Assembly (NCBI GenBank): GCA_029287455.1
Contig: JARFRB010000056.1
Coordinates: 1-64,000, forward strand
DNA from: Pelagibius litoralis
GTDB lineage: Bacteria; Pseudomonadota; Alphaproteobacteria; Kiloniellales; DSM-21159
Reading direction: 5' to 3'
Length of the DNA: 64,000 nucleotides
The notes under the pieces are model-generated. The model had not been told where the DNA came from. It made no database searches and worked only from the letters and a program-made list of their open reading frames with translations. The translations under genes and the position numbers were made by a program. Shown in pieces: positions 13,177 through 27,944 of this stretch. The first letter of the stretch is position 1, and each line of letters starts with the position of its first letter.

Positions 13177-14040
13177 TCAGCCAGGTGTCATCCCGCGCAA
13201 GCGCTCCGAGCGCCGGCGCAGCAGTTCGATCACGGTCATCAGAACGATTGACAGGACAATCAGCAGCGTTGCGACCGCCAGGATAGTCGGACTGATCTGC
13301 TCGCGGATGCCAGACCACATCTGCCGCGGCACGGTGTACTGCTCGGGGCTTGGTGCGATGAAGAGCACCACCACCACTTCGTCGAAGGAGGTGACGAACG
13401 CGAAGAGTGCTCCCGAGATCACGCCCGGCAGGATTAGCGGCATGATGATCTTGAAGAACACAGTGGTGGGGTCCGCCCCCAGCATGGCGCCAGCTCGGCT
13501 GAGCGAGCGGTCGAATCCGATGAGGGTGGCCGTCACGGTGATGACGACAAAGGGCGTGCCAAGCGCTGTGTGAGCCAGAATGATGCCGAAGAGGCTGCCG
13601 GTTAGACCGACCGATGAATAAAAGAAGTAAATGCCGGCGGCAGTGATGATCAGAGGCACCACCATGGGCGAGATCAGCAGTCCCATTATGAAATTGCGGT
13701 AGGGCATGTGGGACTGGCTGAGGCCCAGTGCCGCGATCGTTCCCAGGACGGTCGCGAGGATCGTGGAGAAGATGGCGACGATGATGCTGTTCTGGATCGA
13801 GGTCATCCACCGGTCGTTGCTCAGGAAGCTCTCGTACCACCGCGTCGAGTAGCCGGCGGGATCGAAGGCCAGCATTTCCTTGGTGAAGGTGAAATAGGGC
13901 TCCGCATTGAACGACAGCGGGATGATCACCAGGATAGGGGCGATAAGGAATAGAAAGATCGCGCCGCAGATCACGCGGAAGGCATAGTACCAGACGCGCT
14001 CGCCTGTATCGGCGTAGGGAGGAAGGGAAGATTGGGCCAT
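13177..14040 (-). CDS. Polyamine-type ABC transporter permease (PotC/PotI-like)
   Basis: A 287-residue inner-membrane permease with six helices. It carries the EAA-type cytoplasmic loop RAGAMLGADPTTVFFKIIMPLILPG that couples to the ATPase. It resembles PotC/PotI more than PotB in length and order. The ATG at 14040 follows GGAGGG by ten bases; an upstream TTG reaches 14058 but would remove the site. It follows the other permease gene by 18 bases, an operon arrangement. With the three other pot-type genes it makes a complete importer for putrescine, spermidine or a related cation. Substrate is inferred from family likeness. Confidence 0.9.
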   Translation of the reverse strand: MAQSSLPPYADTGERVWYYAFRVICGAIFLFLIAPILVIIPLSFNAEPYFTFTKEMLAFDPAGYSTRWYESFLSNDRWMTSIQNSIIVAIFSTILATVLGTIAALGLSQSHMPYRNFIMGLLISPMVVPLIITAAGIYFFYSSVGLTGSLFGIILAHTALGTPFVVITVTATLIGFDRSLSRAGAMLGADPTTVFFKIIMPLILPGVISGALFAFVTSFDEVVVVLFIAPSPEQYTVPRQMWSGIREQISPTILAVATLLIVLSIVLMTVIELLRRRSERLRGMTPG

Positions 14041-14058
14041 GAAATTCGCTCCCTCCAA

Positions 14059-15324
14059 TCAGCCGAGCGACAAGCGCTCGACACCGACGAGCTTGTTGTA
14101 GAGCCAGTAAAGCAGCAAGACGCCGATCAATAGGATGCCGCCCAAGGCCGCGGCCAGCCCCCAGTTCAGCGAGGATTGCATGTGGTGAGCAATGAAGTTC
14201 GAGATCATCTGCCCGGTCCGCCCGCCCACGAGCGCGGGAGTGATGTAGTAGCCGATGGCGAGAATAAAGACGAGAAGGCTGCCCGCGCCGACGCCCGGCA
14301 GTGTATTCGGCGCATACACCTTCCAAAACGCTTGGAACCGGGGCGCCCCAAGCGATTGCGCGGCGCGCATGTAACTCGGCGAGATGGTTTTCATCACGCT
14401 GTATAGCGGCAGAACCATGAAGGGCAGCAGGATCTGCGTCATGGCAATAACTGTGCCGGTTTGATTGTAGATAAGCTGGACGCGCCCATCCTCTCCGACA
14501 ATGCCGGTCCAAACCAGGATATCGTTGAGCACGCCCTCAGATTGCAGGATCACGATCCAGGAGGTGGTGCGCACGAGGAGGGATGTCCAAAACGGCAGCA
14601 GCACCATGATCATCAGCAGATTGCTGATCCTGAGCGGCTGGGTCGCCAGCATGTAGGAAATCGGGAATCCGAGCAGCAGGCAGCAGGCGGTCACTAGCAG
14701 CGACATCCACAAGGTGCGCCCGAAGATCGGTACGTAGATCTGGCGATCCTCGGGCTGCATCACGACGTTGCCTTCGGTATCGAAGCGCCGGTCCACCGAC
14801 GCCAGGTACTGGACCGTGTTAAAGCGGTTTCCTAGGCGCTTAATGGTGGCCCAGGTTTCGACCTCGCCCCAGGCCTTGTTGGCGTCCAGGAATGCCTCTT
14901 TGTAAGGGCCCTCCTCGAGCTTGGCGACGCGCCGGGCTGTGCGGGTGATGACGCTGCGCACACCCGACTGCTCGAAGTTGAGGCGGGTGGCGACCTTGCC
15001 GATGGATCGGTCTTCGCGCCCCTTCTTCATATCCTCCGCCAGAGCCGCGAACACCGGCTCTCCGGGAATGTCGGTGCCGTCCCAGTCCTTGAGCGCCGCA
15101 ATGGTGTTGGGCAGCAGGTCCACCACCAGCGGATCGTGGATGCTTCGGAACAGCATCTGGCCAATCGGGAAAAGGAAAGTGATGCAGAGGAAAATGAGCA
15201 GCGGAACCACCAAGGCGAACGCGCGAATCCGTGCCCGGCGTTCCACCCGTGCAAGCGATGTCTTGAGCGGCTGTCCGTCGGCTGTCGTCAGCGCGACCGG
15301 GGGCTGCAGGGTGGATTCGGCCAT
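14059..15324 (-). CDS. Polyamine-type ABC transporter permease (PotB/PotH-like) with long periplasmic insert
   Basis: A 421-residue permease, longer than typical PotB/PotH (about 280-320). Helix 1 is at about 36-60. Residues 61-200 are a hydrophilic insert with helical charged segments (AKLEEGPYKEAFLDANKAWGE) and no membrane helix. The remaining helices and the EAA loop (AAQSLGAPRFQAFWKVYAPNTLPG) are standard. The insert should be periplasmic, because it joins helix 1 to helix 2, and may contact the binding protein. A group of permeases of this length is known in alphaproteobacteria, so it is a subgroup feature, not a defect. It follows the binding-protein gene by 115 bases that hold two hairpins. 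Confidence 0.9.
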   Translation of the reverse strand: MAESTLQPPVALTTADGQPLKTSLARVERRARIRAFALVVPLLIFLCITFLFPIGQMLFRSIHDPLVVDLLPNTIAALKDWDGTDIPGEPVFAALAEDMKKGREDRSIGKVATRLNFEQSGVRSVITRTARRVAKLEEGPYKEAFLDANKAWGEVETWATIKRLGNRFNTVQYLASVDRRFDTEGNVVMQPEDRQIYVPIFGRTLWMSLLVTACCLLLGFPISYMLATQPLRISNLLMIMVLLPFWTSLLVRTTSWIVILQSEGVLNDILVWTGIVGEDGRVQLIYNQTGTVIAMTQILLPFMVLPLYSVMKTISPSYMRAAQSLGAPRFQAFWKVYAPNTLPGVGAGSLLVFILAIGYYITPALVGGRTGQMISNFIAHHMQSSLNWGLAAALGGILLIGVLLLYWLYNKLVGVERLSLG

Positions 15325-15360
15325 GGGTGGGACGCCTTGAATTGTCTTTAACGTACTGGC

Positions 15361-15432
15361 TCGCGGCCGATTGGAAGGAGATACTCCGGCCGCGACCCGA
15401 AACGGGAGGGGGCGCCCTAGGCGGACGCCCCC
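15361..15432 (-). terminator. Two tandem intercistronic hairpins after the binding-protein gene
   Basis: Reading the minus strand after the binding-protein stop, two strong stem-loops appear. One is the seven-base stem at 15408-15414 with 15426-15432 (GGGGGCG/CGCCCCC). The other is the nine-base perfect stem at 15361-15369 with 15387-15395 (TCGCGGCCG/CGGCCGCGA). There is no T-run, so full termination is doubtful. Such structures often stabilise the upstream mRNA and lower downstream permease expression, as in other binding-protein operons. Confidence 0.6.
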
Positions 15433-15439
15433 GAACCGG

Positions 15440-16531
15440 TTACTGAGCCAGCCAAGCGTTGAACCGCTCGTTCAGCTCGTCCTGATAGTCGGCCCAGAAT
15501 TCGAAATCGTTCTGCAGCGCATTCTTGAAGTTATCCGGCGCCGTCGGCATGTGCGGCATCATCTCAACACCGGATTCGGCATGGGTCGAGATCAAGGGCA
15601 CGGAGGATTTGCGGGTGGGACCGTAGGAGATCCAAGCCGCCTGGTCCGCGAGACGCTGGGTGTCGGTGGAGAAAGCGATGAACTTCAAGGCTTCTTCCTT
15701 GTTCGGAGCACCCTGCGGGATCACCCAGAGGTCGAGGTCCCAAACCTGGCCGTCCCAAACAATCACGAAGGGCTTGTTCTCAACGGTTTGGGCATTGAAC
15801 AGGCGGCCGTTGTAGGCGGTGGTCATGACCACTTCGCCGTCGGCCAGCATCTGCGGGGGCTGGGCGCCGGCTTCCCACCAGACGACGTCGTCCTTGATGC
15901 TATCCAATTTGGCAAACGCGCGGTCGATGCCCTCGGGCGTGGCGAGAACATCGTAGACTTCGTCGGCCGGCACACCATCGGCGATCAGTGCAAACTCCAA
16001 GTTCGCCTTCGGCGTCTTGCGCATGCCCCGCTTGCCCGGGAAGCCCTCGGTGTCGAAGAAGTCGGCCATGGTGGCCGGCTTGTCGCCCGGGAACTTCGTT
16101 GCGTCGTAGGCGTAGACCGTCGACCAAACGATGGTCGACACGGCGCAGTCGGTCAGGGTGCCGGGCAGGAAGTCGTCGGCCGCGGGCGTGCCGTCCGGGG
16201 CGTCCGGCAGGATCGATTTGTCGATGGGCTCGAGCAAGCCTTCGTCGCAGCCGCGCACGGCGTCCGACAGTTCGACGTCAACCAGATCCCAAGTGACGTT
16301 GCCCGCTTCCACCTGCGCCTTAACCTCGGCAAGACCGCCGTTGTAATCGGCGGAGACGATTTCGACGCCGGTCATCTCGGTGTAGGGCTTGTGGTAGGCT
16401 TCGACCTGGCTCTTCGTGTAGGCGCCGCCCCACGAAACCACGGTCAAGGGGTCGGCGGCCTGAGCCGACACGATCCCGAAGGCCGCGACCGCGGCCCGCG
16501 CCACGGTGGTGGATTTAAGAAGGTTTTTCAT
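15440..16531 (-). CDS. Polyamine-type ABC transporter substrate-binding protein
   Basis: A 363-residue periplasmic protein. Residues 1-25 are a signal peptide ending ASAQA-like (GIVSAQA, then ADP). The mature sequence begins LTVVSWGGAYTKSQVEAYHKPYTE, the start of PotD/PotF-type binding proteins (spermidine, putrescine or related cations). The later segment GLLEPIDKSILPDA and ALKFIAFSTDTQRLADQAAWISYGP fit this family. The ATG at 16531 follows CAGGGAGAC. It lies 130 bases after the ATPase gene and 115 bases before the first permease. Whether the ligand is putrescine, spermidine or another amine cannot be decided. Confidence 0.9.
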   Translation of the reverse strand: MKNLLKSTTVARAAVAAFGIVSAQAADPLTVVSWGGAYTKSQVEAYHKPYTEMTGVEIVSADYNGGLAEVKAQVEAGNVTWDLVDVELSDAVRGCDEGLLEPIDKSILPDAPDGTPAADDFLPGTLTDCAVSTIVWSTVYAYDATKFPGDKPATMADFFDTEGFPGKRGMRKTPKANLEFALIADGVPADEVYDVLATPEGIDRAFAKLDSIKDDVVWWEAGAQPPQMLADGEVVMTTAYNGRLFNAQTVENKPFVIVWDGQVWDLDLWVIPQGAPNKEEALKFIAFSTDTQRLADQAAWISYGPTRKSSVPLISTHAESGVEMMPHMPTAPDNFKNALQNDFEFWADYQDELNERFNAWLAQ

Positions 16532-16661
16532 ACTCTCTTTGTCTCCCTGTTAATCGAACTGCCGGCCTTGGCCGGTCTGGGGGTGCAAAGCCGCGGAAGC
16601 TTGATTTGGGGTAATCACCGTTTCCGTCGGCATCCACGAAAGTGACCTGGGCTGTTCGCGA

Positions 16662-17756
16662 CTACGCGTCAAGCGCGCGGCAGTCCTCGATTGACCAGCC
16701 CAATTTCACTGCCGCTCCTTCGCGAAGGGCCGCGTGCGCTTGGGCATTCGGCACCTTCACCACGAAATCATCGTGGCCGCAAACCTTGACGCGTGTACGG
16801 ATATGATCTCCCAAATAAATCAGCTCCTGCACTTCCGCGTCGAAAATATTCGGCAGGCTGCCGGCTTCCGGACCGATGGTCACGCGCTCGGGCCGAAGCG
16901 ACAGCAGCGTGGCGCTCCCGGCACCCGCGATATTCACCGGCAGGGCTTGAACTTCGTCGCCGCTGTCCAAAACGACGGTGCAGGCATTCTCGCCGTTTGT
17001 GTGCTGGACCTTGCCCATCAGCTTGTTGTTCTCGCCGATGAACTGCGCGACGAAGGCGTTCTCCGGGCGCTCGTAGAGGTCGGGCGGCGAGGCGAGCTGC
17101 TGGATGATCCCGTCGTTGAAAACCGCGATGCGGTTCGACATGGTCAGCGCCTCGGACTGATCGTGGGTTACATAGACCACGGTGACGCCGAGGGACTCGT
17201 GGATGTGTTTGATTTCGAGCTGCATGTGCTCGCGCAGCTGTTTATCCAGCGCGCCGAGCGGCTCGTCCATCAGCACCAATGTCGGCTGAAACACCAGCGC
17301 GCGGGCCAGGGCGACACGCTGCTGCTGCCCGCCCGAAAGCTGACTTGGGCGGCGGGTGCCGAAGCCGCCAAGCTGCACCATGTCGAGCGCTTTCTTGACC
17401 TTCGTTTCCACCTCGCTCTTGCTCATCTTACGGACCTGCAAGGGGAAGGCCAGGTTCTCGTAAACGCTCATGTGCGGGAACAAGGCGTAATTCTGAAACA
17501 CCATGCCGATATCCCGCTTGTGGGGCGGCACGTTGTTCAGGGTTCTTCCGTCCAGCTTGACGTCGCCGTGGGTCGGTGATTCGAACCCGGCCAGCATCAT
17601 CAGCGTGGTGGTTTTCCCGGAGCCCGATGGGCCCAGCATGGTCAGGAATTCGCCCCGCGCGATGCTAAGATTGAGATCTTTTACGACAAGCGTTTCGCCA
17701 TCGTAGCTTTTTTGGACTTCGGTGAACTCGACAAGGTTCTCGTTACTAATCGCCAT
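16662..17756 (-). CDS. Polyamine-type ABC transporter ATP-binding protein (PotA-like)
   Basis: A 364-residue ATPase that drives the importer. The Walker A motif GPSGSGKTT is near residue 42, the Q-loop in MVFQNYALFPHMSVYENL, the signature LSGGQQQRVALARAL near 145, and Walker B LVLMDEPLGALD. The C-terminal third (about 245 on) is a TOBE domain, which is usual for PotA/FbpC-type regulated ATPases. It heads the transporter genes on the minus strand and lies 220 bases downstream of the aminotransferase gene. That gap contains an inverted repeat and is long enough for its own promoter. Confidence 0.92.
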   Translation of the reverse strand: MAISNENLVEFTEVQKSYDGETLVVKDLNLSIARGEFLTMLGPSGSGKTTTLMMLAGFESPTHGDVKLDGRTLNNVPPHKRDIGMVFQNYALFPHMSVYENLAFPLQVRKMSKSEVETKVKKALDMVQLGGFGTRRPSQLSGGQQQRVALARALVFQPTLVLMDEPLGALDKQLREHMQLEIKHIHESLGVTVVYVTHDQSEALTMSNRIAVFNDGIIQQLASPPDLYERPENAFVAQFIGENNKLMGKVQHTNGENACTVVLDSGDEVQALPVNIAGAGSATLLSLRPERVTIGPEAGSLPNIFDAEVQELIYLGDHIRTRVKVCGHDDFVVKVPNAQAHAALREGAAVKLGWSIEDCRALDA

Positions 17757-17857
17757 CCCAGTGTTCGGCCCCTGCTCGGGTTGCTTGTTCGGGCCTGCCT
17801 CCGCCGCTGTCGCGGTCTTTTATGACCTCAGGTTCTTTTAACTTCGCCCGGGCCGAT

Positions 17858-17876
17858 GCTATTCCATAACAATAGC
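17858..17876. promoter_or_regulatory. Inverted repeat upstream of the transporter ATPase gene
   Basis: GCTATT-N7-AATAGC is a perfect six-base inverted repeat within an unusually AT-rich stretch of the gap between the aminotransferase and the PotA-like gene, about 100 bases before its ATG. The spacing fits an operator for a dimeric regulator. The controlling protein is unknown; the PadR gene at the end of the block is one candidate. Confidence 0.35.
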
Positions 17877-17976
17877 GAATTCGAGTCATTCGTCCAGTGC
17901 GGGAATTGCCTTACAGTTCCACGACTGGGCGCGGTCCCGCCGGCCCAATCATGCAGACCCAATCACGCTGGCTGGA

Positions 17977-19374
17977 TCACTCGGCCGCTTGGCCCTTGCT
18001 CTTCATCCAGGCGGCTGTGTCCTCCAGCGCCGCGCCGAACCGCTCCAGAAGCGTGTCGATATCCTTTTCGGTGCAAATCAGCGGCGGGCAAAACGCTAGG
18101 GTATCGCCGAGATTCCGCAGGATAAGCCCATGGTCCTGGCAGCGCTCGAAGAGGTAGGTCCCGACGACCCCGACCGGGTCGAATGCAGCCTTGCTGGCCT
18201 TGTCGGCGACGAGTTCGATCGCGGCAAGCATGCCCACTCCGCGAACCTCGCCCACGAGAGGATGATCGGTGAAGGCTCGCAGGCCGTTCTGTAAGCGGGG
18301 TGTCAGGGTGGCGGCATTCTCCACCAGCTTCCGCTCTTCGATGATCTTGATGTTCTCGAGCGCCACGGCGGTGGCCACCGGATGGCCGCTGGCCGTGAAG
18401 CCGTGGCCGAAAGTCCCGATCTTGGCGGTGTTCTCGGCGATGCCCTGATAGAGTTCGTCCGAGATCAAGAGGGCCGAAATAGGCATGTAGGAGGACGACA
18501 GGGCCTTCGAGACCGTCATCATGTCCGGGTCGATGCCATAGGTATCGCAGCCGAACATCTTGCCCGTCCGCCCGAATCCATTGATCACCTCGTCGGCGAC
18601 CACGAGGATGTCGTGTTTGCGGCAGATTCGTTGGATCTTCTCCCAATAGGTCGCCGGAGGCGTGATCACGCCGCCCGCACCCATCGCCGGCTCCCCGATG
18701 AAGGCGGCGATGGTCTCCGGGCCTTCGTCTAGGATCAACTGCTCCAAATGCCCGGCCAGCCGGCTCGCGAACTCTTCCTCGCTCTCTCCCGGCTCCGCGA
18801 AGCGGTAGTGGTGGGGGCAGGCGGTGTGCAGAATGTTCGCAATCGGCAGGTCGAAGTCGCGGTGATTGTAAGGCAGACCCGTCAGGCTTCCCGACGCGAT
18901 GGTCACGCCGTGATAGCCCTTGATGCGGGAAATGATTTTCTTCTTCTCTGGCCGTCCGATGGCGTTGTTGTAGTACCAGATCAGCTTCACCGCCGTGTCG
19001 TTCGCCTCGGAGCCCGAGTTCGTGAAAAAGACCCTTGCCGTATTCCGCAGCTTACCCGGCGCCATTGCCGCGAGCTTCTCGGCCAGGTCGATGGAGGGAT
19101 CGTGGCTCTTGTGCGCGAAGGTGTGGTAATAGGGCAGCTTGCGCATTTGTTTAGTCGCCGCCTCGACCAAACGATCCTCCCCGAAGCCGACCGCCACGCT
19201 CCAGAGGCCTGAAAGTCCTTCCAGGTATTCCTTGCCCTGGTCGTCGTAAACATAGACGCCCTTGCCGCGCTCGATGATCATCGGCCCTTTTTCTTCGTGC
19301 TTGCGGGCGTTTGTGTAGGGATGCAGGCTGTACGCGACGTCGCGCGCTGCGGGCGAATTCGGGCGGATCGCCAT
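17977..19374 (-). CDS. Class III aminotransferase, putative polyamine/omega-amino acid:pyruvate
   Basis: A 465-residue PLP-dependent aminotransferase of class III. It has the entry HPYTNARKHEEKGPMIIERGKGVYVYD, the binding-site stretch TNSGSEANDTAVKL, KGYHGVTIASGSLTGLP, the motif DEVINGFGRTGK, and the Schiff-base lysine in SKALSSSYMP. Subgroup features such as ISALLISDELY fit putrescine/omega-amine:pyruvate enzymes (SpuC-like). In front of a polyamine importer it would remove the terminal amino group of the imported amine. The substrate is therefore inferred from context. The ATG at 19374 is preceded by AGGAG with seven bases spacing; a longer frame to 19503 lacks a ribosome site. It diverges from the DapB-like gene. 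Confidence 0.9.
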   Translation of the reverse strand: MAIRPNSPAARDVAYSLHPYTNARKHEEKGPMIIERGKGVYVYDDQGKEYLEGLSGLWSVAVGFGEDRLVEAATKQMRKLPYYHTFAHKSHDPSIDLAEKLAAMAPGKLRNTARVFFTNSGSEANDTAVKLIWYYNNAIGRPEKKKIISRIKGYHGVTIASGSLTGLPYNHRDFDLPIANILHTACPHHYRFAEPGESEEEFASRLAGHLEQLILDEGPETIAAFIGEPAMGAGGVITPPATYWEKIQRICRKHDILVVADEVINGFGRTGKMFGCDTYGIDPDMMTVSKALSSSYMPISALLISDELYQGIAENTAKIGTFGHGFTASGHPVATAVALENIKIIEERKLVENAATLTPRLQNGLRAFTDHPLVGEVRGVGMLAAIELVADKASKAAFDPVGVVGTYLFERCQDHGLILRNLGDTLAFCPPLICTEKDIDTLLERFGAALEDTAAWMKSKGQAAE

Positions 19375-19532
19375 GGCATTGCTCCTAGACTGCGGGTGAA
19401 GCGCCGACGTGGCTTCCCCGACGTGGCATTCGGGCAAGCCTATACCCTTGCTCAGGGGCCGCTCAAGATGTCTCGCGATGAATCGGGCAAGGGTTGGGCC
19501 CAAGCAAGAACCTAGAAAAGGACGAGCGTTCG

Positions 19533-20342
19533 ATGGTGAAAATTTGCATGGCAGGGGTAACCGGCTGGACCGGGCGCGCGATCACGGAGGCTCTGGTGGC
19601 GGCTGAGGATCTTACCCTAACGGGTGCGGTTGCGCGAAAGGCCGCGGGACAAGACCTGGGTGAGGCATTGGGGCTTGCTCGCCAGGGGCTTGTCGTATCC
19701 AAGAGCGTGTCCGAGGCGCTCGATTCGGCCGCGTGCGACGTGCTGATCGACTACACCCATCCCGACTCCATCAAGGGGCACGTTCTCGAGGCCGTGGGCC
19801 GTGGCGTTTGCGTTGTCGTCGGCACCTCTGGGCTGACCGCCGAGGACTACGCGGAGATCGATGCGGCGGCGAGGTCCGCAAAGGTTGGTGTCCTCGCATC
19901 CGGAAATTTCGCCATCACCGCGGCTCTATTGAGCCATTTCGCCTTACAGGCCGCGCGCTACATCGAGCACTTCGAGGTGATCGACTACGCCAAATCCGCC
20001 AAGCCGGACGCCCCATCCGGCACGGCGCGCGAACTCGCCGAGCGTTTGGGCGAGGTTCGGCAGCCGGCCATCGATTGGCCCCTGGACCGGATTCGCGGGC
20101 CGCGCGAGCTTCGGGGCGGCAGCATTAATGGGGTGCAGGTGCATTCGGTCCGCTTGCCCAGCTATACGGCTTCGGTGGATGCGCTTTTCACGGTGCCCGG
20201 TGCCCGCTTGAAGCTAACCCACGATGCCGGGACGGACGCGCGGGTTTATGCCGAGGGAACGCTGTTGGCGGCGCGCAAGGTCGGTGGTTTCGTCGGGCTG
20301 AAACGGGGACTCGATCAGCTTCTTTTCGAGGAAGGCGACTGA
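19533..20342 (+). CDS. DapB-like reductase lacking the catalytic histidine pair
   Basis: A 269-residue homologue of dihydrodipicolinate reductase, of normal length. The nucleotide-binding start GVTGWTGRAI replaces the canonical GAxGRMG. Conserved parts are DVLIDYTHPDS, VVVGTSGL and the substrate loop KPDAPSGTA (157-165). In E. coli DapB the segment before it is EAHHRHK, with His159 and His160 next to the catalytic Lys163. Here it reads DYAKSAK, so Ala153 and Lys154 replace the two histidines while Lys157 is kept. It diverges from the aminotransferase gene and precedes a LysE exporter gene. True DapB may be elsewhere in the genome. It is likely a paralogue with a different imine or keto substrate, perhaps tied to the amine-degrading block. 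The ATG at 19533 was chosen over 19494, which adds a non-conserved tail. Confidence 0.8.
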   Translation: MVKICMAGVTGWTGRAITEALVAAEDLTLTGAVARKAAGQDLGEALGLARQGLVVSKSVSEALDSAACDVLIDYTHPDSIKGHVLEAVGRGVCVVVGTSGLTAEDYAEIDAAARSAKVGVLASGNFAITAALLSHFALQAARYIEHFEVIDYAKSAKPDAPSGTARELAERLGEVRQPAIDWPLDRIRGPRELRGGSINGVQVHSVRLPSYTASVDALFTVPGARLKLTHDAGTDARVYAEGTLLAARKVGGFVGLKRGLDQLLFEEGD

Positions 20343-20390
20343 TCCTCCAAACACGAGCGCGCGGAATGGGGTGACGGCGACTCTGCCGCT

Positions 20391-20455
20391 CCGCTATATA
20401 AACCACCGGTAGCGGATATGGCGGGGAAGGGGCCGGAGGGATTGGCACCGGCCCC
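20391..20455 (+). terminator. Hairpins between the DapB-like and LysE genes
   Basis: The 138-base gap holds two inverted repeats. CCGCTA/TAGCGG is at 20391-20396 and 20410-20415, and the stronger GGGGCCGG/CCGGCCCC is at 20429-20436 and 20448-20455 with an 11-base loop. The second would end the DapB-like transcript or act as an attenuator, because the LysE GTG start lies just 25 bases further. No T-run follows, so it is not a clear intrinsic terminator. Confidence 0.5.
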
Positions 20456-20480
20456 CTAACGCGGGAGTTAACGGCGGCCG

Positions 20481-21146
20481 GTGCTGACGGTCCTTTTCCT
20501 CTTCAAGGCGATCCTCGCGGGGTTCATCGTAGCCGTGCCGGTTGGCCCGATCGGCGCCATCGTCATGCGCCGGGCCTTGCACGGGCGCTGGGCAAGCGGT
20601 CTGGTTACGGGCTTGGGGGCCGCCGTTGCCGACGCGGTGCTTGCGGCGGTGGCCGGCTTGGGCCTGACCCTGGTTCTGAGCTACTTGCGCGATTACGAGA
20701 GCGCCATTCGCTTTTTCGGCGGCCTCTTGCTGATCTACTTCGGTGTGCGGATGCTGGTGCAGCATCCACCTCATCTGCCGCAGAAGCAGCCGGACGAGAC
20801 CTTGAACGGCCGCAGGCTTCGGATCTTGCGGGAGTCCTCGGCGGATTTCAGCGGGGGGTTCCTGCTCACCATCATCAACCCCGCGACCTTTGTCGCGTTC
20901 ATGGGCGTCTTCGCCGCGCTGGATCTTTTCGTGTCGGAGGCGCCGACGGTGGTCAGCTCCGCCCTCTTGATCCTTGGCGTCTTCGCGGGTTCGGCCCTAT
21001 GGTGGCTGACATTGGCGCTGGCGTCCGCGGCGGTAAGGTCTTGGCTTTCCTATAGCCTGATCGAGTGGATCAACCGGGTTCTTGGCGTTCTGGTGATCGG
21101 CTTCGGATTGGCGACGCTTCTCTCCGTCTTCGGCCTGCCGATCTAG
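20481..21146 (+). CDS. LysE/RhtB-family amino acid exporter
   Basis: A 221-residue inner-membrane protein with about six helices. The opening FKAILAGFIVAVPVGPIGAIVMRRALHGRW is typical of LysE/RhtB translocators, with the PVGPIGA signature. A cytoplasmic loop (about 95-120) separates helix 3 from helix 4. It ends with a helix-rich C-terminus LIEWINRVLGVLVIGFGLATLL. Such proteins export basic or neutral amino acids to avoid build-up during peptide or amine catabolism. The start is a GTG at 20481; the upstream AGGG-like site is weak. The stop and the next gene's region are close (GST ATG at 21174). Confidence 0.88.
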   Translation: MLTVLFLFKAILAGFIVAVPVGPIGAIVMRRALHGRWASGLVTGLGAAVADAVLAAVAGLGLTLVLSYLRDYESAIRFFGGLLLIYFGVRMLVQHPPHLPQKQPDETLNGRRLRILRESSADFSGGFLLTIINPATFVAFMGVFAALDLFVSEAPTVVSSALLILGVFAGSALWWLTLALASAAVRSWLSYSLIEWINRVLGVLVIGFGLATLLSVFGLPI

Positions 21147-21173
21147 ATGCCGCGAAAGGGAGAAGCGAGAGGC

Positions 21174-21803
21174 ATGCGGGTATTCGGGGACGCCGGTTCC
21201 GGGAACTGTTATAAGATTCAACTGCTGCTGAACTTGCTCGATATCGATTACGAGTGGGTTTCCATCGACATCCTGAAGGGCGAGACGCGCACGCCCGAAT
21301 ACCTCGCCCGGAACGCGAACGGCAAGATTCCATTGCTTGAATACGCGCCGGGCGACTATCTTGCCGAATCTAATGCCATCCTGCATTACCTGGCCGAAGG
21401 CAGCGCCTACCTGCCCACCGATCGCTTGGCGCATGCGCAGGTCCTGCAGTGGATGTTCTTCGAGCAGTACAGTCACGAGCCCTGCATCGCGGTCGCGCGA
21501 TTCTATATTTTTTACCTTGAAGATCGCGAGGGCCGCCGCGCGGAGTTGGAAAAGCTCTGGGAACGGGGCTACGCTGCCTTGAAGGTGATGGAAAGCCGCT
21601 TGGCGCAAAGCCCTTTCTTGGTGGGGGAGACGCCGACGATCGCCGATCTTTCGCTCTTCGCCTACACCCACGTAGCCCACGAGGGTGACTTCTATCTCGA
21701 TGATTTCCCGGCGATCCGGGCGTGGATCGATGCCATCGAAGCTTTGCCCAGGTTCCGGCCAATGGGCCGGCGAGGGCCGCCAGAAACAAAGGAGGCGCGG
21801 TGA
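21174..21803 (+). CDS. Glutathione S-transferase family protein
   Basis: A 209-residue soluble protein. The thioredoxin-like N-terminal domain has DAGSGNCYKIQLLLNLLDIDY, and the cis-Pro region is NGKIPLLEY, followed by the glutathione-binding ESNAILHYLAEGS. The C-terminal helical domain has GETPTIADLSLFAYTHVA, the N-capping box of the family. It conjugates or otherwise binds glutathione; the actual substrate is unknown. The ATG at 21174 directly follows GAGAGG; the upstream ATG at 21147 overlaps the LysE stop and is less likely. Its TGA overlaps the ATG of the amidohydrolase by one base, suggesting translational coupling. Confidence 0.9.
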   Translation: MRVFGDAGSGNCYKIQLLLNLLDIDYEWVSIDILKGETRTPEYLARNANGKIPLLEYAPGDYLAESNAILHYLAEGSAYLPTDRLAHAQVLQWMFFEQYSHEPCIAVARFYIFYLEDREGRRAELEKLWERGYAALKVMESRLAQSPFLVGETPTIADLSLFAYTHVAHEGDFYLDDFPAIRAWIDAIEALPRFRPMGRRGPPETKEAR

Positions 21804-23038
21804 TGACCGCCCCAAATCAGGTTCTGATCCGCGATTGCCGGATCTTCGACGGATGGAACGAGGCACTTCTGGACGCTCATCATGTCCTGGTGGAGTCCAA
21901 TCGGATCAAGGAGGTGTCCGACCGTCCGATCGAAGCGCCCAACGCGCGGGTAGTGGAGGCCGGGGGCAAGGTTCTCATGCCCGGCCTTATCGACGCTCAT
22001 TATCACGCCGTGGCCGTCGATCCGGATTTGCGCAAGCTGGAAACCATGTCCCGCTACCACATCGCGCAGTACGCGCGCGGGTTCCTGGAGGCCTCCCTGC
22101 GGCGCGGCTTCACGTCGATCCGCGATGCCGGCGGCGCCGACTTCGGCCTGGCACTGGCGGTGGAGAGCCGCCTGGTCGAGGGGCCGCGTGTCTTCTATTG
22201 CGGCCACGCTTTGACCCAAACCGGCGGCCACGCGGATTTTCGAGGCTTGAACGAGGATCACCCGGCATTTTGCCTCTGCGGTCAGGGCGGCAATACCATG
22301 GGCATTATCGCCGATGGCGTTGCCGAGGTGCGCCGCGCAGCCCGCGAGGAGCTTCGCAAAGGCGCCACCCAGATCAAGATCATGGCCTCGGGCGGGGTAT
22401 CGTCTCCGACCGATCCGATATGGAATTTGCAATATTCCGAGGAGGAGATCCGGGCCATTGTCTGGGAGGCGGAGTCCTGGCGGACCTACGTCATGGCCCA
22501 TGCCTACACGCCGGAAGCCATTCGTCGTTGCGTGGCGTTTGGTGTGCGCTCGGTCGAGCACGCGAATCTCATCGACGCGGAAACCGCGGCGTTCTGTGCC
22601 GAGAAGGGGGCGTATGTCGTCCCGACCCTGGTGACTTACGACGCCTTGGAAAGCGACGGTCCGGCCCTTGGCCTGCCCGAGGTGAGCCTGGAGAAACTGC
22701 GCGACGTGCGCGCGGTTGGCCTGAATTCGCTGGAAATCCTGCGCGACGCCGGAGTGAAGATGGGTTTCGGCACCGATCTGCTGGGTCAGATGCACCGACA
22801 TCAGTCCCGCGAGTTCTCCATCCGGGCGGAGGTCTTGACCCCCCTTGAAATCCTGCGCTCGGCCACGCGCGTCAACGCGGAGATGATGAATCGGCAAGGC
22901 GAATTGGGCTGTGTCGCCGCCGGGGCGCTGGCCGACCTCTTGCTGATCGACGGGAATCCCTTGGACGACATTGCCTTGCTGGCGAATGACGGGGCAGGGG
23001 TGTCGATGATCATGAAGGACGGTGAAATCTATCGATAA
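21803..23038 (+). CDS. Metal-dependent amidohydrolase, likely dipeptidase-type
   Basis: A 411-residue member of the amidohydrolase superfamily. Metal-binding motifs are present in order: GLIDAHYHAVAV (HxH, about residue 72), the carboxylated-lysine site in QIKIMASGG (about 195), AHAYT and SVEHANLIDA (His residues), and the catalytic Asp in GTDLLG (about 317). This is the imidazolonepropionase/prolidase-like subgroup, some of which hydrolyse Xaa-Pro or Xaa-Arg dipeptides. It lies upstream of an oligopeptide ABC transporter, which supports peptide processing. The ATG at 21803 is preceded by GGAGG. Substrate is inferred from subgroup and context. Confidence 0.85.
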   Translation: MTAPNQVLIRDCRIFDGWNEALLDAHHVLVESNRIKEVSDRPIEAPNARVVEAGGKVLMPGLIDAHYHAVAVDPDLRKLETMSRYHIAQYARGFLEASLRRGFTSIRDAGGADFGLALAVESRLVEGPRVFYCGHALTQTGGHADFRGLNEDHPAFCLCGQGGNTMGIIADGVAEVRRAAREELRKGATQIKIMASGGVSSPTDPIWNLQYSEEEIRAIVWEAESWRTYVMAHAYTPEAIRRCVAFGVRSVEHANLIDAETAAFCAEKGAYVVPTLVTYDALESDGPALGLPEVSLEKLRDVRAVGLNSLEILRDAGVKMGFGTDLLGQMHRHQSREFSIRAEVLTPLEILRSATRVNAEMMNRQGELGCVAAGALADLLLIDGNPLDDIALLANDGAGVSMIMKDGEIYR

Positions 23039-23244
23039 ACCCGCGGCGCGAAACCGCCGGAATGATTTTATTCCGCTTGTTTCGGGAAGCGGGCTGTACC
23101 AAAGTTGGAGGAATCTGGAGCCGACCGCCCCCAGGCGGCTCACCGGTCCCGGCTTGGCTGGCGGAGCGGAGAATAAACTTTTGGGGACTATAGGGAAGCT
23201 GGGGCGCCTGCCGCCTCGAGGGCTAACGGATCAGGGAGAATAAG

Positions 23245-24849
23245 ATGCGTTTACGTATTGGCGTGGCGGCGGCCATCGCGGCGGTAGCCGCAATGGCGAT
23301 GACGCCGCACTCGGACGCGCGCGCGGAGAAGGTTTTCCGCTACGCGACCACGGGCGATATCCTGGGCTTGGACCCGCACTCGAACAACGAGGGTCCGACC
23401 AACACCATGAAGGGGAACATCTACGGCAAGATGCTGCACCGGCTGCCGGACCTGTCCCTGGAGCCGGACTTGGCGGTGTCCTGGGAGGTGATCGACCCCA
23501 ATCGCTGGCGTTTCAAGCTGCGCGAGGGGGTAACTTTCCATAACGGCAACCCCTTCACGGCCGATGACGTGGTGTATTCCTTCAAGCGTCAGACGCAGGA
23601 AACTTCGGACATGGCCTTCGCGCTGGCGACGGTCGCCGACGTGGAGAAGGTCGACGAGTACACGGTCGACCTGATCACCAAGGGCCCTGACCCGATCCTG
23701 CTGCTGAACATGCCCAACTTCTACATTATGGATAAGGAGTGGACGGAGGAGAACAACGCCTTCGAAGTCGTGCGCGGCGCCGGGAAGACGAACTACCCGA
23801 ACGTCAACGCGAACGGCACCGGCCCCTTCATGGTCGAGGAGTGGGTGCAGGACAACCGCGTGGTGCTCGTGCCCTTCGACGGCTACCACAGCAACGACAA
23901 GATCATGTCGAACTTCGACAAGGCGGTCTTTACGCCCATCGGCAACGACGCGACCCGCGTTGCCGCCCTGTTGTCGGGCGAAATCGATCTCATGTATCCG
24001 GTGCCCTTGCAGGACATCAAGCGCCTCGAGTCCGACCCGAATACCCAGGCGCTGGAAGGCCCGGAACTACGGACCATCTTCCTGGGCTATGACCAGTACC
24101 GCGACGAGCTGCTGGACATGCCGGGCTCGGGCAAGAACCCGTTCAAGGATCCTCGGGTGCGTCAGGCCTTCCATCAGGCCATCGACATCGAGGCCATCAA
24201 GCGCGTCGTGATGCGCGGCGCCTCGACGCCCACCGGGCTGATGGTCGCCCCGGGGATCAACGGCTTCATGGAAGACATGAACGACCGCCAGCCCTACGAT
24301 CCGGACAACGCCAAGGCGCTTCTGGCCGAGGCCGGCTATCCGGACGGTTTCCCGGTGACCTTCGACTGCCCGAACGACCGCTACGTCAACGACGAGGCGA
24401 TCTGCACTGCGGTCGTGCCAATGCTGGAGCGCATTGGCATCGACGTCACCCTGAACGCGCAGACGAAGTCGCTGCATTTCAATAAGATCGGCAAGGCCGA
24501 GGACAACAACACCAGCTTCTTCATGCTGGGTTGGACCCCGGGCTCCTACGACTCCCTCAATCCCTTGATGCAGCTCATGACCTTGGGCAAGCCGGGCCAT
24601 GGCGACTGGAATTCCGGCCGCTACACCAACCCGCGCGTCGAGGAGTTGACGGAGGAGATCAAGACCGAACTGGATCCGGAAAAGCGGGCGGCGCTGATTC
24701 GCGAAGCCTTCCAGATTCATAAAGACGACTTCGGTCACCTTCCGCTGCACCAACAGGCGCTGGCCTGGGGTGTGCGGAGCGACACCGTCGAGGAAGTGGT
24801 GCAACGCCCCTTCAACGACGTGGACCTGCGTTACGTTAAGCTGAAGTAG
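23245..24849 (+). CDS. Peptide/nickel-type ABC transporter substrate-binding protein
   Basis: A 534-residue periplasmic protein of the SBP_bac_5 type. A signal peptide occupies about 1-28 (VAAAIAAVAAMAMTPHSDARA). Family signatures are VFRYATTGDILGLDPHSNN, LEPDLAVSWEVIDPNRWRFKLREGVTFHNGNPFTADDVVYSF and the later DPRVRQAFHQAIDIEAI. It binds di- or oligopeptides in the family. It is the first gene of a five-gene importer; GGGAG lies just before the ATG. The 206-base gap upstream should contain the operon promoter, though the amidohydrolase transcript could read through. Confidence 0.93.
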   Translation: MRLRIGVAAAIAAVAAMAMTPHSDARAEKVFRYATTGDILGLDPHSNNEGPTNTMKGNIYGKMLHRLPDLSLEPDLAVSWEVIDPNRWRFKLREGVTFHNGNPFTADDVVYSFKRQTQETSDMAFALATVADVEKVDEYTVDLITKGPDPILLLNMPNFYIMDKEWTEENNAFEVVRGAGKTNYPNVNANGTGPFMVEEWVQDNRVVLVPFDGYHSNDKIMSNFDKAVFTPIGNDATRVAALLSGEIDLMYPVPLQDIKRLESDPNTQALEGPELRTIFLGYDQYRDELLDMPGSGKNPFKDPRVRQAFHQAIDIEAIKRVVMRGASTPTGLMVAPGINGFMEDMNDRQPYDPDNAKALLAEAGYPDGFPVTFDCPNDRYVNDEAICTAVVPMLERIGIDVTLNAQTKSLHFNKIGKAEDNNTSFFMLGWTPGSYDSLNPLMQLMTLGKPGHGDWNSGRYTNPRVEELTEEIKTELDPEKRAALIREAFQIHKDDFGHLPLHQQALAWGVRSDTVEEVVQRPFNDVDLRYVKLK

Positions 24850-24938
24850 CCGCTGCGGCGAGGGGAACGGCCTGGGTCCGGCGGCGGAAGCCGTCGGCGC
24901 CCGGGCCGGCCCGAATTCTTCGATTAGGCGGTTTTCGG

Positions 24939-25922
24939 ATGTTCGCATTCATCGTGCAGCGGCTGTTCCAAGCGATCTTCGTCATGCTGGCGGTCGCCCT
25001 GGTGTCGTTCACGCTGTTTCAGTTCGTCGGCGACCCCATCAACAACATGATGGGTCAAGACGCCACCGAGGAGCAGCGCGAAGCCCTGCGCGAACGCTTA
25101 GGCCTGAACGATCCGGTGCCGGTCCAGTTTCTGCGCTTCGTTGGCAACACGGTGCAGGGGGAATTCGGCTTGTCGTACCGGGTCGGCAAGCCGGTTTCGG
25201 AATTGATCGCCGAGCGGTTGCCGGCGACCCTGGAGTTGGTGGCGGTCTCCGCGGTGCTGGCGCTGGTGGTTGGCGTGCCCATGGGGATCTATACCGGGCT
25301 CAAGCGATATTCCGTGGTCAGCAGGCTTTTTCTGACGGTTTCGCTCGTTGGCATATCTCTGCCAACTTTTTTGATCGGCATTCTTTTGATCCTTATTTTC
25401 GGCGTCTGGCTCGGCTGGCTTCCGACCTTCGGGCGCGGCGGCACGGTGGACCTTGGCCTTTGGCAGACGAGTTTCCTGACGCTGCAGGGCTGGAGCCATT
25501 TGATCCTGCCTTCGATTACCCTGGCGCTTTTCCAATTGACGCTAATCATGCGCTTGGTGCGGGCGGAGATGCTCGAGGTTTTGCGCACCGACTACATCAA
25601 GTTCGCTCGGGCCCGGGGCTTGCGAAATCGCGCCATCAATTATGGCCATGCCTTGAAAAACACCCTGGTGCCGGTGATCACCATCATGGGCCTACAGATC
25701 GGCTCTTTGCTGGCCTTCTCGATCATTACCGAAACGGTGTTCCAGTGGCCTGGCATGGGCCTGCTGATCCTGCAGGGCATCCAATTCGTCGATATCCCCG
25801 TGATGTCGAGCTATCTGGTGCTCGTCGCGCTGTTCTTCGTCATCATCAACCTCACTGTTGACCTGCTTTACTACGCGGTCGATCCGCGCCTGCGCATCGA
25901 GCGCGGGCCGGCAGGCCATTGA
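24939..25922 (+). CDS. Oligopeptide-type ABC transporter permease (DppB/OppB-like)
   Basis: A 327-residue inner-membrane permease. The N-terminal helix FIVQRLFQAIFVMLAVALVSFTLFQFVGDP begins the DppB-type order. Six helices follow, with the EAA loop in DYIKFARARGLRNRAINYGHALKNTLVPVI. It pairs with the next permease to form the channel. It lies 89 bases after the binding-protein gene and 13 bases before the next permease, so the genes form one operon. The family name is clear; peptide length preference is unknown. Confidence 0.94.
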   Translation: MFAFIVQRLFQAIFVMLAVALVSFTLFQFVGDPINNMMGQDATEEQREALRERLGLNDPVPVQFLRFVGNTVQGEFGLSYRVGKPVSELIAERLPATLELVAVSAVLALVVGVPMGIYTGLKRYSVVSRLFLTVSLVGISLPTFLIGILLILIFGVWLGWLPTFGRGGTVDLGLWQTSFLTLQGWSHLILPSITLALFQLTLIMRLVRAEMLEVLRTDYIKFARARGLRNRAINYGHALKNTLVPVITIMGLQIGSLLAFSIITETVFQWPGMGLLILQGIQFVDIPVMSSYLVLVALFFVIINLTVDLLYYAVDPRLRIERGPAGH

Positions 25923-25935
25923 GCGGGGGCGGGGC

Positions 25936-26901
25936 ATGACCGCTGGAAGCGAAATTCGCACGATCTCTCCTGGCTTCGGTGCCCGCGTCGGCGACAGCCT
26001 GAAACGCTTTTTCGACAGCGACGTCTTCTACAGCTTCAAGCGCTCCCCGGTGACGATTATCGCCTTCCTTGTGACCGTGCTGCTAATCCTCGGTGCCGCT
26101 CTGGCACCCTGGATCGCACCCCACAACACCAACGATGTGGCCAGCCTGAACCTGATGGACGCTTTCCGTCCACCTGTCTGGGAGTCGGGTGGGGAGCCCA
26201 ACTTCCTTTTGGGCACGGACGATCAAGGGCGCGGTGTCTTGTCCTCGATCATGTTTGGGATGCAGCTCTCTTTGCTGGTGGGCTTCGCTTCCGTGCTGCT
26301 GGCCGCCGCCGTTGGCACGATCCTGGGCCTTTTGAGCGGCTATGTCGGCGGGCGCGTAGATAGCGTGATCATGCGCATCGCCGACGTGCAGCTGACGTTT
26401 CCGGCGATCCTGATCGCGCTCTTGATCGACGGTATCGTGGGCAGCTTGTTGCCCAGGGCCATGCACGAGGAGGTGAAGATCTACGTTCTCATCGTAGCCA
26501 TCGCCGCTTCCCAATGGGTGAATTTCGCGCGTACCGTCAGAGGTTCGACCCTGGTGGAGAAGAACAAGGAGTACGTCCAGGCGGCACGTGTCATTGGGGT
26601 GCGCCCTATCGCGATCATGTGGCGCCACGTCCTGCCGAATGTCATGGGTCCGGTGCTGGTGATCGCCACTCTGTCGCTCGCTCTGGCGATCCTGACCGAA
26701 GCCACGCTCTCCTTCCTCGGTGTTGGCGTGCCGGTCACGCGGCCGTCGCTTGGCACCTTGATCCGCATCGGCAACGACTTCCTGTTTTCGGGTGAGTGGT
26801 GGATGACGATCTTTCCGGGGTTGGCTCTGGTGATTTTGGTGCTTTCCGTCAACCTCTTGGGCGATTGGCTGCGCGACGCCCTCAATCCGAAGCTTCGATG
26901 A
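25936..26901 (+). CDS. Oligopeptide-type ABC transporter permease (DppC/OppC-like)
   Basis: A 321-residue permease of the DppC/OppC type. The cytoplasmic start is followed by helix 1 (VTIIAFLVTVLLILGAALAPWIAP), the conserved family segment NFLLGTDDQGRGVLSSIMFGMQLSLLVGF, and the EAA loop KEYVQAARVIGVRPIAIMWRHVLPNV. The ATG at 25936 was chosen because a longer frame beginning at 25858 would overlap the upstream permease. Its TGA (26899-26901) overlaps the ATG of the next ATPase gene, a translational-coupling arrangement. Confidence 0.94.
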   Translation: MTAGSEIRTISPGFGARVGDSLKRFFDSDVFYSFKRSPVTIIAFLVTVLLILGAALAPWIAPHNTNDVASLNLMDAFRPPVWESGGEPNFLLGTDDQGRGVLSSIMFGMQLSLLVGFASVLLAAAVGTILGLLSGYVGGRVDSVIMRIADVQLTFPAILIALLIDGIVGSLLPRAMHEEVKIYVLIVAIAASQWVNFARTVRGSTLVEKNKEYVQAARVIGVRPIAIMWRHVLPNVMGPVLVIATLSLALAILTEATLSFLGVGVPVTRPSLGTLIRIGNDFLFSGEWWMTIFPGLALVILVLSVNLLGDWLRDALNPKLR

Positions 26902-27944
26902 TGAGCGAGTCCGATCCCGTCGGCGCCGCACCGCGCGAGGCTTTGCTGCAGGTCGAGAACCTGCGGATCGAGTTCCCCACCCGCCGCGGCGTCCTGGTGG
27001 CCGTGGACGACATTTCCTTTCACATCAACGAGGGCGAGGTTCTGGGCGTCGTCGGGGAATCCGGGGCGGGCAAGTCGCTGACCGGGGCCTCGATCATTGG
27101 CTTGCTGGAGCCGCCAGGCCGGATCGCCGGCGGAGAGATTTTGCTCTCCGGGCGGCGGATCGATCATCTTCCCTACGAGGACATGCGGCGGATCCGTGGC
27201 CGCGAAATCGGGATGGTCTTCCAGGACCCGCTGACCAGCTTGAACCCGCTCTACACGGTCGGGCGCCAGCTCATCGAAACCATTCAGACCCACACGGACT
27301 TGAGCGAGCAGGCCGCGCGGAAGCGCGCGTTGGAATTGCTTGGTGAGGTCGGCATTCCGGCGGCGAGCCAGCGCATCGATCAGTATCCTCACCAATTCTC
27401 CGGCGGGATGCGCCAGCGCGTGGTTATCGCGCTCGCGCTTTGCATCAATCCCAAGCTGGTGATCGCTGACGAACCCACCACCGCACTCGACGTTTCCATC
27501 CAGGCCCAGATCATCAAGTTGCTCAAGCGCCTCTGTCACGAGCACGGGGCGGCGGTGATGCTGATCACCCACGACATGGGCGTGATCGCCGAAACCGCCG
27601 ACCGGGTCGCGGTGATGTACGCCGGGCGGATCGCCGAAGTCGGGCCTGTGAGCCAAGTTATCAAGCACGCACGCCACCCCTATACCCACGGCTTGATGGG
27701 CTCGATTCCCATGATCGGGCACGACATGGAGCGGCTGACCCAGATCGACGGCTCCATGCCGCGCTTGACGGAGATCCCGCGCGGCTGCGCATTCAATCCG
27801 CGCTGCCCGAAGGTTATGGAGCGCTGCCGGCTCGATCGTCCCGAACCGCTGCCGGTGGGCAATTCCCAGGTGGCGTGCTGGCTCTATGACGATCCCAGCG
27901 CGGAGGTGGAGGAGATCGTGTTTGGAGAGGCCGAGAATGGCTGA
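26898..27944 (+). CDS. Oligopeptide-type ABC transporter ATPase (DppD/OppD-like)
   Basis: A 348-residue ATPase. Walker A GESGAGKS is at about residue 51, the signature [15 protein letters not shown] near 160, Walker [14 protein letters not shown] near 185. The C-terminal half carries the oligopeptide-type extension ([18 protein letters not shown]), a cysteine motif that binds an iron-sulfur cluster in some family members. Two adjacent ATGs, 26898 and 26901, both overlap the permease stop; the first is used here. It overlaps the following ATPase gene by eight bases. The pair of ATPases powers peptide import. Confidence 0.94.

Follow-up and report, generated by a model that had tools for sequence, protein, structure and literature searches.

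DapB is the HTPA reductase of the diaminopimelate pathway, and in the E. coli enzyme His159 is the general acid, a residue for which no mutant data were found in the literature searched. Reductases of piperideine-2-carboxylate and pyrroline-2-carboxylate belong to other families, namely that of DpkA (Ldh_2) and that of ornithine cyclodeaminase and mu-crystallin (OCD/mu-crystallin). In the Paenisporosarcina DapB-NADPH-dipicolinate complex, Thr165 and the backbone O of Pro125 contact one carboxylate of the ligand, Lys158 contacts the ring nitrogen, with the K158A variant being inactive, and the other carboxylate is held by His155 and a water-bridged Arg236 (PMC5962572). A related two-domain, NAD(P)H-dependent fold occurs in the native amine dehydrogenases and 2,4-diaminopentanoate dehydrogenase (PF19328; PDB 6g1m, 6iau). 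Native amine dehydrogenases are marked by a catalytic glutamate at position P3, and NADH-preferring relatives of the fold bear Glu at the end of strand 2 (PMC11164908). No description of a DapB paralogue lacking the catalytic histidines was found in the literature searched, and the 'DapB2' of PMC3646685 is only the name of a primer there. The gene described here lies in the first 64,000 nucleotides of contig JARFRB010000056.1 of Pelagibius litoralis (GCA_029287455.1), referred to as the window, and encodes such a protein (Table 1).

The DapB-like gene and its active site

Pfam matches of the product are DapB_N (1.1e-24), DapB_C (7e-18) and NAD_binding_3, and nothing else. The protein passes TIGR00036, the curated DapB equivalog model, with 155.6 bits against a cut-off of 122, and automatic annotation therefore names genes of this type DapB. 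Alignment with E. coli DapB pairs H159 with A153, H160 with K154, K163 with K157, S168-G169-T170 with S162-G163-T164, R16 with W12 and R240 with A236. The original prediction had thus read the residues correctly, with Ala153 and Lys154 in place of His159 and His160, Lys157 retained and GVTGWTG as the first motif, and it was also right that the nucleotide-binding fold and the KPDAPSGTA loop are kept; its list did not include the loss of Arg240.

Table 1. Coordinates of the DapB-like gene, its motifs and its neighbours in the window.
Feature	Position	Strand	Basis or remark
DapB-like reductase (269 aa) with both catalytic His replaced	19533..20342	+	ATG start; ORF and domain matches
Nucleotide-binding motif GVTGWTG, G8-G14	19554..19574	+	Canonical R16 is W12; W in 56/59 members
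A34-R35, end of strand 2	19632..19637	+	Aligns to E. coli E38-R39; NADPH-type pattern
Active-site loop A153-K-S-A-K157-P-D-A-P-S-G-T-A165	19989..20027	+	Other residues at His159/His160; Lys163 and PSGT retained
A236, aligned to E. coli Arg240	20238..20240	+	Second-carboxylate clamp lost; Arg in 0/59 members
Divergent class III aminotransferase (PRK06105 subfamily)	17977..19374	-	Domain/family matches
Intergenic region of 158 bp separating the divergently oriented transaminase and DapB-like genes	19375..19532		
PotA-type ABC importer: two permease genes, solute-binding protein, ATPase	13177..17756	-	
LysE-family exporter, next downstream gene	20481..21146	+	

Residue counts over 59 non-redundant members, with 12 alphaproteobacterial DapB as the canonical comparison, show that the active site is rewritten in a consistent manner throughout the clade. 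At the His159 position, 57 members have Ala and two have Cys, and none has His, the residue of 12/12 canonical proteins; His160 survives in 2/59 members and Arg240 in none. Lys163 and Thr170 are each kept in 58/59 members and Asn128 in 59/59, and the end of strand 2 carries a small residue in nearly all members, followed by Arg in every one. E167 and R258 are invariant across the members and rare (1/12) or absent in canonical DapB. Tyr152 was considered as a substitute acid and rejected, being Ile or Phe in 4/59 members. Pairwise dN/dS values for ten close pairs range from 0.06 to 0.30, indicating purifying selection, and these values together with the non-His residue in all 59 members exclude chance or sequencing error. 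The window-type genes are a real, conserved and repurposed subfamily of DapB.

The comparison with described enzymes can be made feature by feature. The fold, with DapB_N and DapB_C, is common to the window protein and to DapB (TIGR00036), including the actinobacterial, cyanobacterial and Firmicutes branch (PDB 5tjy, 5kt0, 5z2e), and with the structures of that branch the window protein also shares the Lys163/PSGT half-site, the RG...VHSxR segment and the predicted hydride transfer from NAD(P)H. The window clade differs from DapB in lacking His159, Arg240 and nearly always His160, in having Trp for R16, and in its new invariants E167 and R258 and a one-residue insertion (G233). Native amine dehydrogenases are only 14–17% identical to the window protein and have another family of C-terminal domain, and no Pfam match to PF19328 (DAP_DH_C) was found in it. 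The Ldh_2 and OCD/mu-crystallin reductases are of unrelated families, with no Pfam match to either at E 0.001, and the likeness to them would lie in the proposed reaction class only. An AlphaFold2 model built from an alignment of 39 family members, from which plasmid-record sequences were left out, has a mean pLDDT of 93.7 and a pTM of 0.89; the solved structure nearest to it is DapB 5tjy (Z 29.4, rmsd 2.2, 242 residues), and native amine dehydrogenases come next after the DapB structures (Z about 20–22). The fold that the model predicts to be common with DapB does not show what the protein does.

Distribution, phylogeny and canonical DapB in carrier genomes

Relatives of the window gene, at 43–77% identity with the Tistlia orthologue at 77%, are sparse among Alphaproteobacteria, with a window-type gene in 7/61 genomes of the order (E 1e-40) and in 7/398 genomes of a phylum sample, and many loci are found in Microvirga, Bosea, Chelatococcus and others. 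Members also occur on a Pantoea plasmid, a Mucilaginibacter plasmid and a Persicobacter replicon, which points to horizontal transfer. In a maximum-likelihood tree, the 43 members included form one clade with support of 100/99, on a long stem that drew a long-branch warning from the program, and with the same warning the canonical DapB closest to it is the actinobacterial, Firmicutes and cyanobacterial group, the proteobacterial type being more distant. The separate clade expected from the claim of a paralogue is thereby recovered, subject to that long stem.

A special function would be hard to maintain if the gene were the only DapB of its genome. The genome-wide search for a second, canonical copy found one other DapB_C protein in the window genome (3.63 Mb, 96% complete), on contig C17, which is canonical (EMHHRHKVDAPSGTA) and has the HH pair, so that this objection to the original prediction fails. 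Among 18 genomes with a window-type gene, drawn from the class sample together with the window genome, a canonical-type second copy is present in 16. One of the other two (G071, 82% complete) shows a fragment covering 63 model positions. In the other (G035, 99% complete), canonical dapB was not found, though dapD and the window-type gene are present; the neighbours that dapB has in a sister genome are all on one G035 contig but widely separated and in a changed arrangement, the stretches read there contain no dapB, and because of this rearrangement a gap is indistinguishable from loss of the gene. In the window genome, the window-type gene is unlinked to the diaminopimelate pathway, and its product is very probably not the working HTPA reductase there.

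Gene neighbourhoods

The divergent class III aminotransferase, starting at 19374, and the downstream LysE-family gene at 20481 both lie where the original prediction had placed them. The two permease genes of the ABC importer were called from ORF positions and sequence similarity to relatives, and no match to a sigma-70-type consensus was found in the 158-bp intergenic region. The window-type gene adjoins the transaminase in 7/7 carriers of the order, within about 0.2 kb in six of them and across a 0.9-kb gap in G336, and three f38-family genomes and one from family f72 also have the pair. The transaminase is independent of the window-type gene, since it is found in 53/61 genomes of the order against 7/61.

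The surroundings form an order-wide syntenic block (13177–27944 in the window; relatives L108, L109 and L115), which is found both with the DapB-like gene and without it. Its layout is a PotA-type ABC importer, hemA in some cases and the class III transaminase, divergent from the Dpp transporter genes, which may be accompanied by genes for LysE, GST and an amidohydrolase. Adjacency to LysE says little, because the block contains LysE-like genes whether or not the DapB-like gene is present. A 5-aminolevulinate synthase gene (hemA) stands between the transaminase and the importer in many relatives, including L033 (4215–5429) and L066 (10008–11243). This enzyme was considered as a pathway partner and rejected, as the sole hemA match above the family cut-off in the window genome is on another contig (C13) and is read as the housekeeping gene.

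Outside the order, the neighbours differ from clade to clade. In 14 Microvirga loci the gene lies some 20 bases after gcdH, and it is directly followed by a succinate-glutarate-type CoA-transferase in all 13 of those whose contig continues; the GcdH call has 600-bit matches to solved glutaryl-CoA dehydrogenases, and the CoA-transferase scores 628 bits, below the glutarate-enzyme cut-off of 750. A GcdH homologue is present elsewhere in the window genome and in those of eight other carriers, which adds little as it would be expected in many such bacteria. In Caenispirillum, the gene lies in a polyamine locus, between PotF-/PotA-type genes and an agmatine deiminase and N-carbamoylputrescine amidase pair; in Phreatobacter, it stands between a DapL-type aminotransferase gene and hom; and it precedes a D-amino acid transaminase gene in Mesorhizobium and a DMT-family exporter gene in Mucilaginibacter. 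The remaining neighbours look incidental. The theme common to these loci, amino acid and amine metabolism, is no more than suggestive, and the context of transaminase, polyamine importer or locus, and gcdH with CoA-transferase agrees with an imine reductase of amine or lysine catabolism without proving it. Two observations were made in passing: the ORF adjoining the DapB-like gene in one Caenispirillum locus (L034, 7057–7977) matches an RGS domain (PF00615, 30.4 bits), which is unexpected in a bacterium, and the 1.2-Mb record CP061270.1 (L107), named 'plasmid pSTEC1012_1', has the usual chromosomal order rihC-dapB-carA and may be a piece of chromosome.

Proposed substrate and rival readings

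The sequence of Paenisporosarcina DapB aligns with the window protein at the same active-site motif. By this alignment, the His155/Arg236 pair (E. coli His160/Arg240) is exactly the pair lost in the clade, and the half-site for the ring nitrogen and the other carboxylate, the equivalents of Lys163 and Thr170, is retained. As one half-site is kept while the other and the general acid are gone, a substrate with a single carboxylate beside the ring nitrogen is inferred, and NADPH is the predicted cofactor because strand 2 ends in a small residue and an invariant Arg, not in Glu. The window protein probably reduces a substrate other than that of DapB, and a smaller one, so that its name in databases would be wrong. 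A cyclic imine from amine breakdown, which the original prediction had also suggested, is plausible. That the protein is a DapB-derived, NADPH-dependent enzyme outside the diaminopimelate pathway, acting in the breakdown of amines or lysine on a cyclic imine with one carboxylate, is given somewhat less than an even chance. The substrate may be delta1-piperideine-2-carboxylate or a close relative, from lysine or diamine breakdown; delta1-piperideine-2-carboxylate would be the simplest candidate, being the DapB product minus its second carboxylate. Binding of the ring nitrogen and the lone carboxylate would fall to Lys157 and the S162-G163-T164 loop, with direct hydride transfer from NADPH to the C=N carbon. 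A protonated cyclic iminium would not require a general acid, and the loss of His159 might for this reason be tolerated.

The cyclic-imine proposal has to be weighed against neighbourhoods that vary by clade and are in part apparently incidental (nadE/gltX, glycosyltransferase genes), against a transaminase that is common without the window-type gene, and against the 99% complete genome with dapD and the window-type gene in which canonical dapB was not found. This last genome would instead suit a protein that has kept HTPA reduction as its function, serving as a reserve or condition-dependent DapB and tolerating the altered residues, as would the TIGR00036 score and the retained DapB fold, Lys163 and PSGT. 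Such an enzyme is nevertheless improbable, given the absence of His159 and Arg240 from 59/59 members and of His160 from 57/59, the canonical DapB maintained in 16/18 carrier genomes, and clade residues that are fixed in a state of their own with no drift. The altered histidine positions could mark a non-catalytic homologue, such as a regulator binding NADPH or a metabolite, but this is very unlikely, since a dead enzyme need not retain the NADPH site, Lys163, PSGT and the new invariants E167 and R258, all of which are strongly conserved.

The same residue data are also compatible with an NADPH-dependent reductase of another carbonyl, an open-chain imine or a conjugated C=C, for example a reductive aminase or enal reductase, and the native amine dehydrogenases, as the next-nearest fold, show that the fold takes open-chain carbonyls and ammonia. 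Against such a substrate stand the near-invariant Lys163/PSGT half-site, which in DapB binds the ring nitrogen and a carboxylate, and the C-terminal domain, which is DapB_C and not that of the amine dehydrogenases; an activity of this kind is rather unlikely, though less so than either of the two preceding readings. Returning to the cyclic imine, the broadest form of the proposal likewise has somewhat less than an even chance: the clade may constitute an unrecognised enzyme family, in which a biosynthetic reductase of a dicarboxylate, DapB, has lost its general acid and one carboxylate clamp, has become a catabolic cyclic-imine reductase of the piperideine-carboxylate type in lysine or diamine breakdown, and has spread horizontally.

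Through a curated model, an entire clade is automatically named DapB despite its rewritten active site. If a cyclic imine with one carboxylate is indeed reduced, a few fixed changes would have redirected a biosynthetic enzyme that is essential and a drug target, and the clade would offer a new scaffold for imine reduction.
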